Shown in pieces: positions 6,944 to 14,844 of a DNA stretch of 23,163 bases. Position numbers and translations under genes: made by a program. Each line of letters opens with the position of its first letter. The stretch's first letter is position 1. Location: IMG/VR virus record IMGVR_UViG_3300032213_001592, positions 1 to 23,163 of that record. One strand, given 5' to 3'. The notes beneath the pieces were generated by a model. That model was not told the origin of the DNA and did no database searches. It saw only the letters and a list, made by a program, of their open reading frames with translations. This stretch comes from a virus.

Positions 6944-8080
6944 TTATACGTTTACATACACTTCTGGAAACAAAACTTTACTGTTGGTGCCATGTCTTTG
7001 GTCAACTCCTTCTAAAAATTTTATTAAATCTGGATGGGCCTGATCGGCATGGTCGTTTCTGCCCGGCAATTGTAGTTGTTCTATTATGGAGGTGACACTG
7101 GGCGTAATATGTGCATAATTAGTTAATAACGAAATGGCAGTTGCACGTGCCGAATCCGGCAAGTTTTGTGGATCTAGTGGTCCTCCATGACCACTGTTGT
7201 AATAAGTCATACTTATATCTTGAATCGAACGGCCCCAATTTTTAATTTGGTCAATATAGTCAAACATACTAATAGTAGTCAGTGCGGTATATACCAAATT
7301 AAAACTGATCGTTATAGTAGGGTGCTCATTCATTAGGGTAGTAATATTCTTAGTAAATGTTTCCCAGTCACTTCCATACCGAATATAATTATAATGTTCT
7401 CCAACTGCCTCGCCGCTGAGGACAAAATGTACTTTTTTAAATTTACAAATTAAATTAAAAATCTCATTATTAATTATTGACAAGTTGGTATTAACTATAA
7501 TTTTACAATCTGGATTTTCACGATATAAATTTGTCAGAAGCCATATATTTTCTTTTGTTAACATTGGTTCGCCACCGGCTAGATAAACTGTTTCGATGTC
7601 TTTGATTTTATCTATTAAAAATTCTTTTATGCGTGTGATCTTTTGGTGATCGACCACTTGCAATATGTTTAACTCTTCGGCTAATTTTGAGCTATATGTC
7701 GGGGCACAATACACACATGCAGAATTGCATATGTTTGTCCATCGTATATCTAAATAGTTTAATTTAAAACTGTTATCATTATAAACTGAAAGTGGTACTG
7801 ATGAATTCATTCCTAACATATGGTGTCTTAATGAGGCAGTAGTTGTATCTTTGCGGTTACATCCCTGACACCCTGTAGGTAATATCCCATCTAACATCTG
7901 TTGTTTAACCAGTTGATTTTTTTCCAAAAACATTACATCTAAGATGTCATGCGTCACTGCATTTCCGATGCGATTGTTTGAAATACAACAATTATCAATG
8001 TATCCAGTGGAATCTATATAGATAGAGGTCCACGGTGCTGGACAAAACGTTGGATTATTTTTATAGTCGTGGTCGTTCAT
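6944..8080 (-). CDS. radical SAM protein with N-terminal twitch-like domain (copy 1)
   Basis: 378-residue radical SAM enzyme of the type with an N-terminal auxiliary-cluster region. Cys13 (TFCPAPW), the pair Cys31-Cys32 (GYIDNCC) and Cys71-x2-Cys74 (GCQGC) form the twitch-like part. The core follows: LDIRWTNICNSACVYC with Cys118-x3-Cys122-x2-Cys125, and LAGGEPML (GGEP 169-172). It shares this layout and many local motifs (CPAPW, LDxRWxNxCN, VYCxPTYSS, GGEPxL, IxYxR-G) with 8576-9634, so the two are paralogs. Coupled to the 168-aa gene by ATGA at 8077-8080. Very AT-rich. Substrate unknown; the auxiliary clusters suggest modification of a peptide, sugar or other bulky substrate. It does not look like QueE. 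Confidence 0.88.
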   Translation of the reverse strand: MNDHDYKNNPTFCPAPWTSIYIDSTGYIDNCCISNNRIGNAVTHDILDVMFLEKNQLVKQQMLDGILPTGCQGCNRKDTTTASLRHHMLGMNSSVPLSVYNDNSFKLNYLDIRWTNICNSACVYCAPTYSSKLAEELNILQVVDHQKITRIKEFLIDKIKDIETVYLAGGEPMLTKENIWLLTNLYRENPDCKIIVNTNLSIINNEIFNLICKFKKVHFVLSGEAVGEHYNYIRYGSDWETFTKNITTLMNEHPTITISFNLVYTALTTISMFDYIDQIKNWGRSIQDISMTYYNSGHGGPLDPQNLPDSARATAISLLTNYAHITPSVTSIIEQLQLPGRNDHADQAHPDLIKFLEGVDQRHGTNSKVLFPEVYVNV

Positions 8081-8583
8081 ACTACTGTTTTGTCCTTTGT
8101 GTATTTAGACCAGTCAGTGAACACGTTTCGATTTTGTAAACTATGTAAATTATGGCACCATACACCGGGGTTGGTAGCCGCAAAGTCTTTGTCGTCTAGC
8201 TTAATTGTAGCGTTATATCCAAGTTGACGAATGTATGGAAGTTTTACAGAGATCATTGGAATGAAGTTATTGTGCTCACACAAGCCACCTTCTAGCAATC
8301 CTTCTACACAGCCGACTGGAATATCTAGTGTACACAGATATCCCTTGGCCAGGAACGGCATAATCATTTCTTCCCACTTGGTCCACACAGGATCAGTATA
8401 ATATAGATCTGGGAAGCTCATGTTTGCACCAAAGTAGATATGTTCACTGCCTTGCAAATTCAGTGCAATGTTCTCTTGCGTTTGAATGCCAACAACAAAT
8501 AGTGTTTTCTTGCCATATGCAGGAGTATGTTCTACTTCTGTGCCGGTAAAGAAACTAACTCCGTTATGTCCTTCTCTATTCAT
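8077..8583 (-). CDS. unrecognised 168-aa phage-type protein
   Basis: 168 residues, soluble, with no catalytic motif I can name. Notable stretches are VSFFTGTEVEHTPAYGKKTL near the N-terminus, EHIYFGANMSFPDLYY, KGYLCTLDIPVGCVEGLL, then FIPMISVKLPY and ATIKLDDKDFAATNPGVWCH. The alternating hydrophobic strands and acidic patch suggest a compact alpha/beta fold. It is framed by two radical SAM paralogs, overlapping both (8 bases at its start, ATGA at its end), but its composition matches dpdA and the QueD-like gene. That suggests an original order dpdA, this gene, QueD-like gene, later split by AT-rich cargo. If so it may take part in deazaguanine modification. That is inference from position only. 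Confidence 0.75.
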   Translation of the reverse strand: MNREGHNGVSFFTGTEVEHTPAYGKKTLFVVGIQTQENIALNLQGSEHIYFGANMSFPDLYYTDPVWTKWEEMIMPFLAKGYLCTLDIPVGCVEGLLEGGLCEHNNFIPMISVKLPYIRQLGYNATIKLDDKDFAATNPGVWCHNLHSLQNRNVFTDWSKYTKDKTVV

Positions 8584-9634
8584 ATAACTCCGGAAAAATT
8601 AAACGATGATTTTGGTTAGTTAGTTGATCAAATTTTTCATACAACGGAAGATGGGTAGTCAGACGTTGAGTAGTAGAAATTTTTATTTGATCTAACAGTC
8701 TGTGTTTTATTATGTCAGGCAATTTATTGCTGTAATCTATATTTTTTTGGTTTATCAATTGTAACACATGTTGTCCTACAAAGTCAAATCCGTGTCCACC
8801 GAATTGGCTCACAATGAACACATTGTCTGGAGTAGTATGTTCAAGAGCAACATCGATGGCATTAGAAATATCAACCGAACTCAATGGAAAATAGACCATG
8901 TTTATCTGTATATTCAAAAAGTCCGTTGTTAGCTGTACTAGATTTGATTGAAACTCTGCCCATTTAGCACCATTTCTAATATATTCAAATTTATCGCCAG
9001 TGCTTTCGTAGCTAACAACAAAGGTTACATTGTCAAAGTTTTTTAATAACTGATAAATTTTATTATTATGAATTGATGTTAAATTGGTTGTTACCTCAAT
9101 TTTAACATGTGAATTAATTCTTAATACTCTTTCTAGTAATTCGTAATTTTCTTTGATCAATAATGGTTCTCCGCCGGCAAGTTGTAAAAATTTTAAATTG
9201 GCCAGGTCCAAGTCAGTTACTGTGGGAGATACTCTAAACTTTTGTGTTAGTCCTCTGAGTTCGGCCCACCGGCTACTGTATGTAGGACTACAGTAAACAC
9301 AGTTAAGATTACAAGTATTACTCCATCGTAGATCTAAATGTTCTAATTGGAATGTTTCCGCATTATTAAGGTCGTGAAAAAAATCATCATATTGATACAT
9401 ACTTCTGCGACTATCAAGATCGCCAGTGGCTTCTCTATCCCAACATTGTTGGCATCCTGGATGTTGCTCATCATTAATTATTGCTGTTCTTATACCCATA
9501 AAAACAGAATTGCTTTTAATATCGTTGAATGTGTTAATTGCCCCACGAGTCAGATTAACGCAACATACCTTTGCAGACCCATCAGAATCTAAACTTAACC
9601 CGGACCATGGAGCAGCACAGAAGTGTTTTCTCAT
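8576..9634 (-). CDS. radical SAM protein with N-terminal twitch-like domain (copy 2)
   Basis: 352-residue paralog of 6944-8080. N-terminal auxiliary cysteines: Cys6 (HFCAAPW), Cys24-Cys25 (AKVCC), Cys61-x2-Cys64 (GCQQC). Radical SAM core: LDLRWSNTCNLNCVYC with Cys108, Cys112 and Cys115; SAM-binding LAGGEPLL with GGEP at 154-157. The start ATG overlaps the dpdA stop (TAATG, 9632-9636), so translation is coupled. Strikingly AT-rich: 9061-9120 has 13 G/C in 60, against 29 in 60 at 10501-10560 within dpdA. Product unknown. Duplicated radical SAM enzymes of one type in one operon suggest successive or alternative steps on related substrates. Confidence 0.88.
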   Translation of the reverse strand: MRKHFCAAPWSGLSLDSDGSAKVCCVNLTRGAINTFNDIKSNSVFMGIRTAIINDEQHPGCQQCWDREATGDLDSRRSMYQYDDFFHDLNNAETFQLEHLDLRWSNTCNLNCVYCSPTYSSRWAELRGLTQKFRVSPTVTDLDLANLKFLQLAGGEPLLIKENYELLERVLRINSHVKIEVTTNLTSIHNNKIYQLLKNFDNVTFVVSYESTGDKFEYIRNGAKWAEFQSNLVQLTTDFLNIQINMVYFPLSSVDISNAIDVALEHTTPDNVFIVSQFGGHGFDFVGQHVLQLINQKNIDYSNKLPDIIKHRLLDQIKISTTQRLTTHLPLYEKFDQLTNQNHRLIFPELYE

Positions 9635-11175
9635 TATGCCTCAAGTTGATCTAATTTAGATTCGTCAAACTTTACGTCATCATCCGTTGATTGCTCGGCA
9701 GTTTCGAATAGACTGTTAAATTGAGTGTGTGCATTTTTGGCCTTTTTGCCTTTGAACCCGCGTGTGCCAACAATGTCCATCCAATAACGATCGTATTGTT
9801 CAATAATGGCTTCTGCTTCTGCACGATCGGGTGTAGCAAAGATTGCTTCAACAATGTCCTCAAATCGAGTATGGTCACCGTTTGTGTCCCACATCATTCG
9901 AGGCCTTTTACCAGCATCAAACTCGCGATTGGCACGTTGCACAGACTCTAAGTGTAACCAAACATTATGGCCCATGAGCAATGCATACGAGAAACTGTCC
10001 CAAGATGTCTTACCTTCTTTGCCAATCTTGTTCAGATCACCTGGTTTGTAGTAGCAAATATCTTTCATTTGTAAATGCCGACTAATGGGACTGTCTTCAA
10101 ATGTATCAACCAATCCATCTGCCACAACACCTTGACTAAATGGGCGTGTGTCTGCGGCATACTTCTTGTCATCCACAATGGGATTCATTCTATAACTCCA
10201 CTTGCCGTTGTGTGGCAATACAATCTCATGGTACACCTGTCCATTGGCTGTAGCGAGGAATGGGCTGGCACAGTCAAAGGAAATAGTAAATTGTGGATTC
10301 ACATACTTACGTACTGCCCTTTGAATCACGGTGAGTAACACAGCCCATTCCAACTTGCTTGTGCCCAAGAAGTGCATCCAATCATGAATGCCCGGTTGTA
10401 GCAGGTTATCATGTCGTAGTGCTACCAAACGCCGTAGCACCAAATGCACATCGCACATGTTCTGTCCACCCATACTCCAACCATTAAAGTGTGTGTCTGG
10501 GTATTTTGCCGGATCGCAGTACTCTTTCATCATGTCATACCAACGATCTGCGTCGGCATGATTGGCACCTTGCAACACGTTCAAGAACTTGGCACCGCCA
10601 TTCTTAACACCTTTACGGTGCTTCATGAAGTATTCATTATTGTACTTAGTAGCATCGACTGCTTCTTGCAGTGTGGTAATCTGACAAGCCGCACTGGCTT
10701 TCTTATCGTGAATAACCCAGGTAGGGATATCCAAGATCATGCCATAGTCAGAAACTCCATCCAACCACTTTAGTACAGCATCACGCTTCTTCTGTGCTTT
10801 GGGACAACCTGAGTTGGCTTTCCAGTCACCTTCCCACAGGCCTTTGGCAATTTGGAATCCACCAGAGTCGCCTAGTATCAGTGTGCCTGGCTCTCGATTG
10901 CGAACCATGTCCTCGCTCCAGTCCGGCTTGTTAAGATCTAAGTTGGCATGGCCACCGGAATATAAACTCCATCGGTATGGAAACAGACCTTTTTGACTAC
11001 TAAGCCAGTTCATCTGTTCCATGTCCGGCATACCTTGCGGCATACGTGCAGGCTCTACATATGGCCCATTAACTGGATCACGTTGCTTGCCTATGAACGT
11101 GGCATAGAAGCCAGATATAGCCGGCAGGAATACTGCATAGTCGTTTTGCTTGGCGGTTAAATTATCTTGGGTCAT
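9634..11175 (-). CDS. dpdA: TGT-fold DNA/tRNA-guanine transglycosylase (DpdA-like)
   Basis: 513-residue protein of the tRNA-guanine transglycosylase superfamily, which swaps guanine for a 7-deazaguanine base; DpdA relatives do this on DNA. Signatures in order (numbering from ATG 11175): LILGDSGGFQIAKG with DSGGFQ at 103-108, the substrate-binding Asp motif of TGT; FLNVLQGANHADADRWYDMM; GWSMGGQN in place of the GG-x-A-(V/I)-G loop; MHFLGTSKLEW; and ISFDCASPF with Asp301 at the nucleophile position (FDCV-P in TGT). The Cys-x-Cys-x2-Cys zinc site of bacterial tRNA TGT is not obvious and the protein is much longer than Tgt (about 375), both in favour of DpdA. I choose ATG 11175 over 11193 because a diverged second copy of this 5' end (11797-11865) begins at the equivalent ATG. 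A tRNA substrate cannot be excluded. Confidence 0.85.
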   Translation of the reverse strand: MTQDNLTAKQNDYAVFLPAISGFYATFIGKQRDPVNGPYVEPARMPQGMPDMEQMNWLSSQKGLFPYRWSLYSGGHANLDLNKPDWSEDMVRNREPGTLILGDSGGFQIAKGLWEGDWKANSGCPKAQKKRDAVLKWLDGVSDYGMILDIPTWVIHDKKASAACQITTLQEAVDATKYNNEYFMKHRKGVKNGGAKFLNVLQGANHADADRWYDMMKEYCDPAKYPDTHFNGWSMGGQNMCDVHLVLRRLVALRHDNLLQPGIHDWMHFLGTSKLEWAVLLTVIQRAVRKYVNPQFTISFDCASPFLATANGQVYHEIVLPHNGKWSYRMNPIVDDKKYAADTRPFSQGVVADGLVDTFEDSPISRHLQMKDICYYKPGDLNKIGKEGKTSWDSFSYALLMGHNVWLHLESVQRANREFDAGKRPRMMWDTNGDHTRFEDIVEAIFATPDRAEAEAIIEQYDRYWMDIVGTRGFKGKKAKNAHTQFNSLFETAEQSTDDDVKFDESKLDQLEA

Positions 11176-11797
11176 AATATGGTACTTGGTCAATTAAATA
11201 ATAATCTTCTATAAAATAAGTTTTAAGTTGATTAATGTAATCGGGGTTTGTTAGTATGTGGTTAAATGAATTTTTAAATTTAGTACGAATTGGTGATTGA
11301 TTGCCTACATTTTTATAACTATAGGTGTCAAACTGATTGTTAATACCTAACTTAGATAGATAATGTGAAAAATTAGTTCTATAGGTAGAATCACATTTAA
11401 AAAAAGTACAATTATCTGTATCTAATCCTTCGATAAAATATCTTTGTTTTTCAGTGTGATCATCAAATGTAATGCGATCCAACAATAATTCATAAAATGC
11501 ATTGTTAAACTGATTAGTATCTACATCTTTGTGATACAATGTGAAATATTCACAAATACCACTGAGCCATCTTTCTATTGGATCTCTTAATACTACTAAC
11601 GCATGTGTTTGATGCATTTTTTTAAGATGGTAATTTGTTAATTGCCAACCTACTGATTCTAAATTACTTTTAGTCCAGCTACTTGCACATTTAGGAATAT
11701 TAACATATATCAAATTATTATCACCGGACACAAAGCAACTTCCAAGTTGATGCCCTTTGTGGCTCCAGTGATTAATAAAATTTGATGTGACTATCAT
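11162..11797 (-). CDS. sulfotransferase-family protein
   Basis: 211-residue probable PAPS-dependent sulfotransferase, which moves sulfate onto a sugar, lipid or peptide. YVNIPKCASSWTKSNL (residues 31-46) is the 5'-phosphosulfate-binding PK-x-x-S-(S/T)-W loop, and VVLRDPIERWLSGICEYF (68-85) is the 3'-phosphate-binding R-D-P-x-x-R block. FKCDSTYRTN and the terminal FIEDYYLIDQV resemble the family's C-terminal region. Length fits the short membrane-less bacterial and phage forms. AT-rich: 11281-11340 holds 19 G/C of 60. The gene starts in a TAATG overlap with a relict dpdA 5' fragment, and its last codons and stop (YDPR-stop) are read out of frame from the first codons of dpdA. It is therefore a clear insert between a radical SAM gene and dpdA. 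The acceptor is unknown. Confidence 0.83.
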   Translation of the reverse strand: MIVTSNFINHWSHKGHQLGSCFVSGDNNLIYVNIPKCASSWTKSNLESVGWQLTNYHLKKMHQTHALVVLRDPIERWLSGICEYFTLYHKDVDTNQFNNAFYELLLDRITFDDHTEKQRYFIEGLDTDNCTFFKCDSTYRTNFSHYLSKLGINNQFDTYSYKNVGNQSPIRTKFKNSFNHILTNPDYINQLKTYFIEDYYLIDQVPYYDPR

Positions 11798-11865
11798 TAT
11801 TTAGATTGTGCTGCCAAGAATACCGCGTAATCATTTTGCTTGGCGGTTAGATTGTCTTGGGTCAT
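11797..11865 (-). pseudogene. relict/duplicate 5' end of dpdA (22-codon mini-ORF)
   Basis: ATG at 11865 opens 22 codons beginning MTQDNLTAKQNDYAVFL, identical over these 17 residues to the N-terminus of the transglycosylase at 11175, then diverging and stopping with TAA at 11797-11799. The 17 shared codons differ from dpdA at seven positions, all synonymous. The mini-ORF overlaps the radical SAM stop (ATGA, 11862-11865) and the sulfotransferase start (TAATG). It is best explained as the start of a dpdA from a related lineage left behind when the sulfotransferase gene was recombined in. It may still act as a translated coupling leader for the sulfotransferase. Confidence 0.85.
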
Positions 11866-12878
11866 AAAAGTTTTTTTATATTCGAAGCAAGTATAATTTG
11901 TGATGATTTATCTGCATCTCGCAACTGAGTTATTGTGGCTTGATATAGTGGATGATTAGGATCGTCGAGCACTGCTTGACTTGCAAAGTCTTTAAATGTA
12001 TTCCAATTTTCAAGTTGAGTAATTATTCCAAGGAATCCGTAGTGTTCGCACATGCTGACAAAATTTCCTACATCCGAGGCATTGTTAGCAGATAAGGTAT
12101 AATTTAAAGTAACTTTAGAATGTTCTGGTTTATTGTCTGCTAACCAATCTAAATTCTCTCTCAAGTTTTTAAATTTTCCAGGGCTACGAACAACTTCGTA
12201 AACCTCACTACTGCCTGCATCGACACTGATTTGAAATTCTGAAATGTAACTAAAAACTGTACTCTCAGGCAACAACTTTTTCATTAACAGACCATTAGTG
12301 AATAACGTAATGGTCTGATTGTTTTTTGGAACCCAATTCAACACAATTGGTCGCATAATTAAACTAGATAATGGATCACCGCTGCCAATTAGAACAACTT
12401 TTGTTGGCTCATTAAAATTTTCTAAAAGTGTTAAAAAGTGTTTGACTAATTTTAAGCGACTATCAAACACGTCACCTTCTGTATAATTGATCATCTCTGT
12501 GCGACAGCTAGGACATACTAAATTACAACTATTATCCATATTTACTGCTATATGGTATTCTGACTGTGGCATAGAGAAATCTTCGATCCCGCAACGTTCA
12601 ACAGCACAGTATTCATAGCTGTGATTAGTAACACTATCTTGTAAGGTCTTAGCGATTGGATTTGTCCAAACATCAGCAAGTGAACTGAACTCGCTGATGT
12701 TTCCAACAGAGATTGGCAACCAAGCTTCACAAATACAAAGGTAACAATTTCCGTTAGAATCAATACTTAAACTGCGGAAAGGTCGTTCGCAAGAATTTAA
12801 TATCGGCGGACGATCCTTTCCTCGAACTAATCGAGTAACCTGATTTATTATCGGTATAACTTGTTGATTGCTTGACAT
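11862..12878 (-). CDS. radical SAM protein with N-terminal auxiliary cysteines (copy 3)
   Basis: 338-residue radical SAM enzyme. The N-terminal part has Cys30 (NSCERPF), Cys45, Cys48 and Cys50 (NGNCYLCIC) and Cys91/Cys96 (YEYCAVERC), an auxiliary-cluster arrangement. The core is AVNMDNSCNLVCPSC with Cys118-x3-Cys122-x2-Cys125, then LIGSGDPL (165-169 GSGDP) for SAM binding. It is more distant from the two copies at 6944 and 8576, with GSGDP for GGEP and PSCR for VYC. The stop overlaps the ATG of the relict dpdA fragment, which points to an ancestral direct radical SAM-dpdA junction. AT-rich cargo. Substrate unknown. Confidence 0.86.
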   Translation of the reverse strand: MSSNQQVIPIINQVTRLVRGKDRPPILNSCERPFRSLSIDSNGNCYLCICEAWLPISVGNISEFSSLADVWTNPIAKTLQDSVTNHSYEYCAVERCGIEDFSMPQSEYHIAVNMDNSCNLVCPSCRTEMINYTEGDVFDSRLKLVKHFLTLLENFNEPTKVVLIGSGDPLSSLIMRPIVLNWVPKNNQTITLFTNGLLMKKLLPESTVFSYISEFQISVDAGSSEVYEVVRSPGKFKNLRENLDWLADNKPEHSKVTLNYTLSANNASDVGNFVSMCEHYGFLGIITQLENWNTFKDFASQAVLDDPNHPLYQATITQLRDADKSSQIILASNIKKLL

Positions 12879-12890
12879 TGTTTTAATTAT

Positions 12891-13106
12891 TTAAACCAGA
12901 TCTTTATCAATTTTGCCCCATTTGATTTTAAGCCAGATTCGTTCATGTATGTAATAATCGATACTTAATAATACATGCAGTGCAGTAGCAAAGCCTGCTG
13001 AGCTGCCTAGATTGCCAGTGAACAAGTATGTCCAAAAGATTGTAAACAGCCATGCAGTCAGTCGATACGTAAGCATCCTGACCACAGTGCGTTTTTTAGT
13101 TTCCAT
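12891..13106 (-). CDS. DUF2061-type small membrane protein
   Basis: 71 residues. The N-terminal KKRTVVRMLTYRLTAWLFT and the later YYIHERIWLKIKWG match the DUF2061 pattern (K-R-x2-K-x-L-x-[WY]-R at the start, Y-x-H-E-R-[IV]-W near the end). There are two hydrophobic segments at about 12-29 and 36-50 with a short TGNLG turn, so it is likely a two-helix inner-membrane protein. Its ATG overlaps the clamp stop (TAATG, 13104-13108), so it is co-translated with the clamp. Biochemical function of this family is unknown. Confidence 0.82.
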   Translation of the reverse strand: METKKRTVVRMLTYRLTAWLFTIFWTYLFTGNLGSSAGFATALHVLLSIDYYIHERIWLKIKWGKIDKDLV

Positions 13107-13828
13107 TATTTACTCTGTGCCGGCAAGATGTAGTTGTAAACAGCAAGACCAGAGTCAACCGTGATCATTGCGGCACCATCATCGCTGATCTTAACAACTT
13201 TGTCGCCTGTAAGATCCATGATGGAAATAAATGTCTTGATAGGCCAACTCCATGCACGTTTCAACTGACCAGTGATACCAGGATGGAACACAAAGTTACC
13301 AGCGTGTGTGCTATGGTCGCCAAAGAAGAACATCAAATTGCCATTTTCTGTTTTTGCCTGGAAGTTTGTTTCTTCACTGTTGGCCTGTGCCTGCATCTTT
13401 AAACGCATGATGCTGGCATTGGTTGGTTCAAACTCAATGTGCCAGTTGACACCTTTAAACTTGACAGTTTTAAGTTTCTCGTTGACAATTTCGCTGGCCA
13501 TAAAGCGATAACTGTTTTTAAAGTCACCTAGTTTGTTTTCAAAGTTAATACCGTCAGGTTCACCAGTGCCGCGCCGTGTGATGCCGAGTTTGGCATCCTC
13601 ACGATACTCTTGCAAGTTCAGCAAGATTTTTAACTTGCTCAAGTTAGGCATACCAAAATTACCAATAAAGTCTGGCACCGGGTTGGCAAACTTGCCCTCA
13701 ACCACCACAGATCTGTCTTCTGCCAATCCAGAAATAACTGTCTCAGATTCTGTGCCTGTAATTTTTACCAAATCGATCACACCCAAATCCAGTGTGTGTT
13801 CAACCAAGTCTAATAAATGATCTCTCAT
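13106..13828 (-). CDS. 45: sliding clamp, T4 gp45-like
   Basis: 240-residue DNA polymerase processivity clamp, similar in length to T4 gp45 (228). It forms a ring on DNA, tethers the polymerase and, in T4, also activates late transcription. Recognisable parts are the N-terminal VEHTLDLGVIDLVKITGTE, the NLSKLKILLNL strand-helix block at about 62-72, the RFMASEIVNEK turn, and the C-terminal LTGDKVVKISDDGAAMITVDSGLAVYNYILPA. It has an AGGAG ribosome site at 13837-13841, 8 bases before ATG, and its own promoter (13849-13877). Location close behind the polymerase supports the call. No odd features. Confidence 0.93.
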   Translation of the reverse strand: MRDHLLDLVEHTLDLGVIDLVKITGTESETVISGLAEDRSVVVEGKFANPVPDFIGNFGMPNLSKLKILLNLQEYREDAKLGITRRGTGEPDGINFENKLGDFKNSYRFMASEIVNEKLKTVKFKGVNWHIEFEPTNASIMRLKMQAQANSEETNFQAKTENGNLMFFFGDHSTHAGNFVFHPGITGQLKRAWSWPIKTFISIMDLTGDKVVKISDDGAAMITVDSGLAVYNYILPAQSK

Positions 13829-13848
13829 GTTTAATTCTCCTATTGTGT

Positions 13849-13877
13849 ATTGTATATGATTTATTTAGATTTTGCAA
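13849..13877 (-). promoter_or_regulatory. probable sigma70-type promoter for the clamp gene
   Basis: Minus-strand TTGCAA (13872-13877), 17 bases, TACAAT (13849-13854): four and five matches to the consensus hexamers. It fills the 50-base gap between the methyltransferase-like gene and gp45, with AGGAG at 13837-13841 downstream. The spacer includes TAAATAAA, which resembles T4-type late promoter TATAAATA, so use by a modified polymerase is also possible. Confidence 0.6.
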
Positions 13878-13878
13878 G

Positions 13879-14844
13879 TCATTTGTGAACTATTTTTGCC
13901 AAAGTTTGGCCGCCTCGGATACTTTCTAATTCTCCAGGTTTGCGTAATTCTAACCAAGTTAGATTTCCCATGTCCGTCCAACTGAACATCTGTCGATATC
14001 CAATTGATTTTGCAATTGCCTTTACTTGTTTTCCAGGTGTATAGAAACAAAAATTCTTTTCAACTAGCGCCACACAGTGTGCCCGGTCGCAATCGTTGAA
14101 TGTCATTGCCAGTATACCACCAGGGCGTAGCTTAACAAAAATGTTTTTCAAGTATTGCTCTAATACTTCAAGCGGTGTAAATTCAAAAAAGTTAAATGCA
14201 AGACACATGCCAAATTGATTATTTGGCAGTGTATCTAACACGTTAGTTGAGCATGGATCTTGTTCGTACATTCGCAGTCTGCGCTGATACTCGTTGGGAA
14301 AGGTAGATAACGCTGGCTGTAGTAGTTCTTTACTGTAGTCAACAATATACAAAGGATCAAGTGCAACTAAGTCACTGATAAATGTTTCGACTCCGGGACG
14401 AATAATCAGTCCCGGATACTTCCAATCGACATAACTTTTAATACGATTAGAAATCATTTGTTGCACATCGGCGGTCATTGGCATTCGCCGATCAAGTATC
14501 TGTTGATTAACTTGTTTATTAGTATTCTCGTCAAGTCGACCGTAACGTGCTACTTCTTCATTGTAGAGTCGACTGCTGTCGGCATACTGCGTTTTTTCGG
14601 CCGTCTCAATCATGCTGTCTAACTCATTTATTAATTCTACAAATGTAGAACTAAAATGATCAAATGCATCAATAACACGTTCTTGATCTTCTTTTAGTGT
14701 TTGGGTAAATGCACGTGGCTGTATCACACTGTTCTTTACATTGTAAACTATTTCTTCTAGTTTATGTCGTGCGGCATACTGAATGTCGCCAACATCAAAC
14801 TCTGACAGATGATTGCGATATGCTACTAATTCACTAAGTTTCAT
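13879..14844 (-). CDS. class I SAM methyltransferase-like protein
   Basis: 321 residues. The N-terminal 150 are helical and charged (likely coiled segments around 50-85) without a known domain. The second half resembles a Rossmann methyltransferase: PGVETFISDLVALDPLYIVDYS (motif I and acidic motif II), NQFGMCLAFNFFEFTPL (motif IV region) and LKNIFVKLRPGGILAMTFNDCD (motif V/VI). The glycine-rich G-x-G-x-G loop is degenerate, so SAM binding is not certain. It begins 3 bases after the polymerase stop and has backbone-like composition, so it is probably a stable member of this phage group's replication region. Substrate unknown; DNA-related action is plausible from context. Confidence 0.6.
   Translation of the reverse strand: MKLSELVAYRNHLSEFDVGDIQYAARHKLEEIVYNVKNSVIQPRAFTQTLKEDQERVIDAFDHFSSTFVELINELDSMIETAEKTQYADSSRLYNEEVARYGRLDENTNKQVNQQILDRRMPMTADVQQMISNRIKSYVDWKYPGLIIRPGVETFISDLVALDPLYIVDYSKELLQPALSTFPNEYQRRLRMYEQDPCSTNVLDTLPNNQFGMCLAFNFFEFTPLEVLEQYLKNIFVKLRPGGILAMTFNDCDRAHCVALVEKNFCFYTPGKQVKAIAKSIGYRQMFSWTDMGNLTWLELRKPGELESIRGGQTLAKIVHK

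Follow-up and report, generated by a model that had tools for sequence, protein, structure and literature searches.

The origin of accessory genes placed neatly between core phage genes is usually only inferred, because the joins are clean. The nearest published case to the one described here is mycobacteriophage Island3, where at the gene 67/68 junction the 18 C-terminal residues of gene 68 (about 50 bp) repeat those of the upstream gene, a repeat that was interpreted as the mark of recombination, in or out, at a slot flanked by two core genes (Pope et al. 2011, PMC3029335). Accessory genes that separate core genes which adjoin each other in relatives are termed morons, in the definition passed on through the same report (PMC3029335). 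For T4-related phages, illegitimate recombination has been proposed for DNA additions at junctions without mobile-element signatures (review PMC2993671).

We analysed a window, the whole stretch of 23,163 nucleotides from an uncultured large phage, represented by a single metagenomic contig, in which two modules of accessory (cargo) genes are separated by a 69-nt mini-ORF of 22 codons, hereafter the scar. Whereas the process in T4-related phages was inferred in general, at this one junction parts of both parental borders can still be recognised, which allows the exchange to be read directly. As in Island3, an inserted gene has at its border a second copy of the end of an adjacent core gene; the Island3 repeat involves one border sequence, whereas here the head of the right neighbour and the tail of the left neighbour are combined in one element, which lies between two stacked cargo modules in a slot sampled in 204 intervals. 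The scar is a variant of the Island3-type trace. Very probably it is a remnant of recombination at the border of the two modules, and its mini-ORF may still relay translation.

The core genes flanking this slot, a sliding clamp gene and dpdA, directly adjoin each other in 73 of 204 distinct intervals, and the cargo between them is placed like a moron. Morons typically carry their own promoter and terminator, whereas the slot cargo has no promoter or terminator signal above chance in a consensus scan, and no Shine-Dalgarno site. The PeSL mobile regulatory cassettes of T4-type phages, reportedly described by Arbiol and colleagues in 2010, are said to be intergenic elements of a promoter plus a stem-loop. 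Short repeats at gene borders accompany modular shuffling in both systems; the shared sequences here are instead coding ends of core genes, with no promoter excess and no RNA structure at the scar beyond that of shuffled sequences (z -0.38).

The scar as an in-frame hybrid of two core-gene ends

The minus strand carries, in order, a DNA polymerase gene, a methyltransferase-like gene, the sliding clamp gene, a DUF2061 gene, a radical SAM/SPASM gene, the scar, a sulfotransferase-like gene, dpdA and further radical SAM genes (Table 1). The clamp model (pLDDT 91) has a PCNA-like fold, with a PCNA match at E=2.5e-12. The AlphaFold model of the right-hand border gene has the fold of tRNA-guanine transglycosylases (TGT; E=1.5e-6, prob 1.0), and its sequence matches no family model in Pfam, PHROGs, NCBIfam or PADLOC, so it is the predicted fold that supports the name dpdA, which stands for a TGT-like DNA transglycosylase associated with 7-deazaguanine in phage DNA. 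Only 13 deposited phages encode a distant relative of this dpdA-like protein, at no more than 35% identity. The sulfotransferase-like product matches Sulfotransfer_2 at E=5e-4, just under the curated cut-off, and no relative of it was found in bacterial and archaeal genomes. Related loci, labelled by L numbers, were taken from IMG/VR through dpdA and sulfotransferase searches.

Table 1 Features of the clamp-dpdA region in the window
Feature	Position	Strand	Remarks
Sliding clamp, PCNA-like fold, left slot border	13106..13828	-	Shine-Dalgarno AGGAGA
Cargo 1, DUF2061 membrane protein	12891..13106	-	Start overlaps clamp stop
Cargo 2, radical SAM/SPASM protein	11862..12878	-	L021 relative 73%, joined directly to dpdA
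Scar, hybrid 22-codon mini-ORF	11797..11865	-	dpdA head in frame with clamp tail; basis, sequence
dpdA-head half of scar	11815..11865	-	17 codons, 7 synonymous differences from downstream dpdA
Clamp-tail half of scar	11797..11820	-	TTCTTGGCAGCACAATCTAAATAA
Cargo 3, sulfotransferase-like	11162..11797	-	Stop inside dpdA head, 14-nt overlap
dpdA, TGT-like fold, right slot border	9634..11175	-	Structure model

The scar frame translates as MTQDNLTAKQNDYAVFLAAQSK followed by a stop; its start overlaps the radical SAM stop (ATGA) and its stop overlaps the sulfotransferase start (TAATG). An earlier, sequence-only reading had noted that the 22-codon frame at 11865 repeats the first 17 codons of dpdA with seven synonymous differences. 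The repeat is real and its coordinates are correct: it is the sole direct repeat of at least 30 nt within the 23-kb window, BLAST of the scar region against the window recovers it at E=1.3e-13, and the two copies are 82% alike over 65 nt. Codons 1-17 of the scar and of dpdA encode the same protein sequence, and all seven nucleotide differences are transitions. Against a dpdA-head profile built on 126 distinct relatives, the scar reaches 44.8 of 47.7 bits and is the sole non-dpdA match above 16 bits in 5.8 million positions.

The description of the fragment as a copy of the dpdA 5' end holds for these 17 codons and missed the nature of the last five. These, with their stop (AAQSK-stop), correspond to the clamp gene's 3' terminus (LPAQSK-stop), the clamp product ending in YILPAQSK. 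With a profile of 138 distinct clamp tails, the scar scores 21.2 bits and the next non-clamp match 14.2 (5.78 million positions scanned), and the clamp tails of L219 and L285 plus the next start codon are identical to the scar end at 20 of 21 nt. Because its first 17 codons match the dpdA head and its last five the clamp 3' end, the scar is an in-frame dpdA-head/clamp-tail hybrid. The change-over falls at Leu-Pro-Ala codons, which the dpdA head and the clamp tail have in common in equal frame and where the scar reads Leu-Ala-Ala; since it lies inside these Leu-Pro/Ala-Ala codons, the two halves overlap by a few bases.

Among dpdA heads with nearly equal head protein, synonymous differences occur at 6.9 +/- 2.1 of 15 codons and the protein is almost unchanged, so the divergence of the scar head is typical of allele pairs. 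This agrees with the earlier proposal that the fragment derives from a diverged dpdA allele, and the synonymous pattern speaks against recent duplication of the dpdA present in the window. The fragment had also been taken to date the insertion, and what it offers is a relative date, with the join made after the two dpdA alleles had diverged. The suggested search for a donor among the dpdA genes of relatives found none.

Turnover of cargo in the clamp-dpdA slot

Of 293 records, 284 contain both clamp and dpdA, and these collapsed to 204 distinct intervals. The two genes flank every slot in the relatives examined; the clamp adjoins dpdA in the 73 empty intervals, and the other 131 carry one to four cargo genes, 168 in total from about 20 families. 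The start of dpdA had been proposed as a cargo landing site, which is borne out by these 131 intervals as far as the place is concerned, the site being the clamp-dpdA junction and not the dpdA start alone. On a dpdA tree with many open forks (199 proteins, first 30 codons left out, FastTree) slot content changes at least 75 times, a number that is approximate. Closely related backbones carry unlike cargo, with the slot empty in L018 and L020 and holding radical SAM in L021, and with DUF2061 in L001 and L007 and sulfotransferase in L003 and L008, and the nearest relatives of the window have a slot that holds DUF2061 or another sulfotransferase or is empty. The clamp-dpdA junction is therefore a slot that gains, swaps and loses accessory genes with fast turnover.

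The largest share of the cargo consists of diverged sulfotransferase-like genes (89 of 168, in slots from L003 to L295), ahead of a small protein family (26), DUF2061 (14) and radical SAM (8). The frequency of the sulfotransferases points to a role in infection that is under selection. A GIY-YIG-like gene that has NUMOD3 motifs and resembles homing endonucleases occupies the slot in L110 (7147-7848), L193 (3313-4014) and L202 (3289-3990); it belongs to the few cargo families with a Shine-Dalgarno-like site upstream and could drive exchange at the slot.

Both parental arrangements are present among relatives. The order clamp-DUF2061-dpdA occurs in L001, L007 and L013, and clamp-radical SAM-dpdA in L021, where the radical SAM stop is joined to the dpdA start by ATGA, exactly the sulfotransferase-free site that had been predicted. 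All 52 sulfotransferase relatives lie 3' of the clamp in the slot; in the 48 of these loci whose contig reaches dpdA, that gene is on the other side, sometimes with more cargo between, and clamp-sulfotransferase-dpdA is the arrangement of most of the 52. Because relatives show both parental arrangements, the window reads as clamp-DUF2061-radical SAM-[dpdA head / clamp tail]-sulfotransferase-dpdA, two slots in tandem. Relatives carrying the fragment without a sulfotransferase, named by the sequence-only reading as its refutation, were absent from the collections searched.

Stacking arose more than once, since in L096 and L099-L102 radical SAM and sulfotransferase genes are stacked with a clean ATGA junction and no scar. 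Most other stacked cargo is also joined cleanly, and a second full hybrid was found neither at other stacked cargo nor elsewhere in the collections searched. Imprecise joins at the dpdA head nevertheless exist in other loci. At L114:5964-5979 (on the same contig as L291), a 16-nt dpdA-head remnant, ATGACCCAAGATAATG, lies between two tandem sulfotransferase genes, giving the first its stop and overlapping the start of the second; L112:5940-5970 has an eroded form of this remnant between sulfotransferases. The dpdA start of L075 (3246-3275), ATGACTCAAGAT-CTAATCCAAGACAATC, contains a four-codon repeat, formed from its own opening codons, such as an imprecise cargo join might leave.

Two further candidates were rejected. 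An older second scar at the DUF2061-radical SAM junction (12879-12895) was dismissed because its AATTGA belongs to DUF2061, as in L277, and neither profile scores there. Pattern matches in L296 and L297 are due to chance; L297 is an unrelated phage, and tblastn of both with the slot genes returned nothing.

Origin of the scar

We infer a single exchange between two genomes. One genome would have carried clamp-(DUF2061)-radical SAM-dpdA and the other clamp-sulfotransferase-dpdA, and an illegitimate exchange, in this phage or an ancestor, would have connected the dpdA head from the former with the clamp tail from the latter. The exchange point was probably at the Leu-Pro-Ala codons common to both ends in equal frame, and the outcome would be a sulfotransferase slot behind the radical SAM slot, with the hybrid left between them. 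Both junctions of the scar equal native ones, with a -4 overlap at the head, the one found in L021, and a -1 overlap at the tail, shared with 76 of 131 slots. The earlier idea that the whole fragment came in with the sulfotransferase would then apply to one half of it: the clamp tail most likely travelled with that gene, and the dpdA head is assigned to the radical SAM side. Among the sampled alleles, head and tail share runs at the Leu-Pro-Ala codons whose median length is 4 nt; in some pairs they reach 8-13 nt, 13 nt being the maximum, so guidance of the join by microhomology is possible but unproven.

Neither parent was found in the loci sampled: the closest sulfotransferase is 54% identical to that of the window, no radical SAM gene is nearer than the one in L021, and the dpdA head of L021 has an insertion that is not in the scar. 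A breakpoint inside dpdA itself was also considered and set aside, as codons 1-100 are about equally near to outside lineages and to the gene's own clade and the signal is too weak.

An identical hybrid product would result from tandem duplication of clamp-slot-dpdA, deletion from the first dpdA head to the second clamp tail, and later replacement of one cargo by the sulfotransferase through homologous exchange at the flanks, which are conserved and would permit such a swap. This path takes three steps against one, and because the scar head is unlike the window's dpdA at seven positions it needs an allele replacement as well; we consider it improbable.

That purifying selection acts on the encoded protein sequence and maintains the 22-codon frame as a gene or peptide is very unlikely. 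Both ends of the frame, start and stop, are intact and overlap the neighbouring genes, and seven of seven differences being synonymous has a probability of about 3e-4 to 7e-4 under unconstrained change, a pattern from which the sequence-only reading had argued that the fragment might still be translated. However, allelic divergence before the join predicts an equal pattern, and no relative conserves such a peptide. Since typical allele pairs already differ synonymously, the scar needs no ongoing selection; its synonymous-only change appears to be ordinary allelic divergence and does not imply maintenance of the fragment, and selection as the necessary explanation was dropped.

Assembly of two strains into a chimera comes to mind for a metagenomic contig whose hybrid is unique among the data searched. 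The new head-tail join, however, shares at most 13 nt of identity between sampled alleles, below usual assembly overlaps, which makes a chimera very unlikely; moreover, the joins of radical SAM to dpdA head and of clamp tail to cargo start are of kinds present in independent contigs, and a repeat of 82% is too diverged for a repeat-collapse artefact. A target-site duplication, or what is left of a transposon or homing element responsible for the sulfotransferase insertion, would account for repeats flanking that gene and could draw on the GIY-YIG-like family of the slot, but is hardly credible given copies that differ by 18% over 65 nt, a left copy ending in clamp sequence, no transposase or endonuclease gene between the window's clamp and dpdA, and, in the window, none of the short identical direct repeats with a transposase that mark such insertions.

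Expression signals and a possible translational relay

A recombination remnant at this position may nevertheless be of use to the phage. Shine-Dalgarno sites of at least 5 nt precede 201 of 202 clamp genes, 6 of 168 cargo genes and 3 of 204 dpdA genes. In 105 of 131 slots the first cargo gene starts at -1 or -4 with respect to the clamp stop, and a start within 20 nt of the previous stop was seen for 155 of 165 cargo genes. Promoter- and terminator-like sites in 9500-14100 of the window are at chance level in the consensus scan, which phage-specific promoters could escape. Slot cargo seems to depend on translational coupling.

If the mini-ORF were absent, 64 nt would separate the radical SAM stop from the sulfotransferase start of the window, which lacks a Shine-Dalgarno site; its presence gives two overlaps of the native types, the -4 overlap that ends cargo and the -1 overlap that starts it. 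Ribosomes could go from the radical SAM gene via the 22 codons to the sulfotransferase gene, and these retained overlaps, with the missing Shine-Dalgarno site, make it attractive to suppose that the mini-ORF may act as such a relay.

In the window the dpdA head reads ATGACNCAAGATAAY (11155-11175), and its two alternative reading frames contain TGA and TAA, so that cargo arriving in either frame ends inside the first codons of dpdA. Stops in both other frames are found in 99 of 155 distinct dpdA heads, against 11% of control positions inside dpdA. Tentatively, and as a possibility that we hold with some doubt, the core-gene ends might serve as portable adaptors for cargo without promoter or Shine-Dalgarno site, the clamp tail launching it by stop-start overlap, the dpdA head ending it and restarting the ribosome, and the scar being an adaptor reused inside the slot. 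If this were true, the phage could stack cargo without new expression signals. Together, the clamp-dpdA slot and the apparent coupling yield a rule, open to testing, on the places where phages can carry accessory genes and on how such genes are stacked.

Cargo may also lie elsewhere in these genomes. In L105 (4249-5208) and L106-L108, a radical SAM gene is located upstream of the clamp, between the methyltransferase and the clamp, which is a second cargo position. On the other side of the slot, the further radical SAM genes 3' of dpdA (window 6944-9634) are missing or replaced in close relatives, and this stretch may be another variable region.
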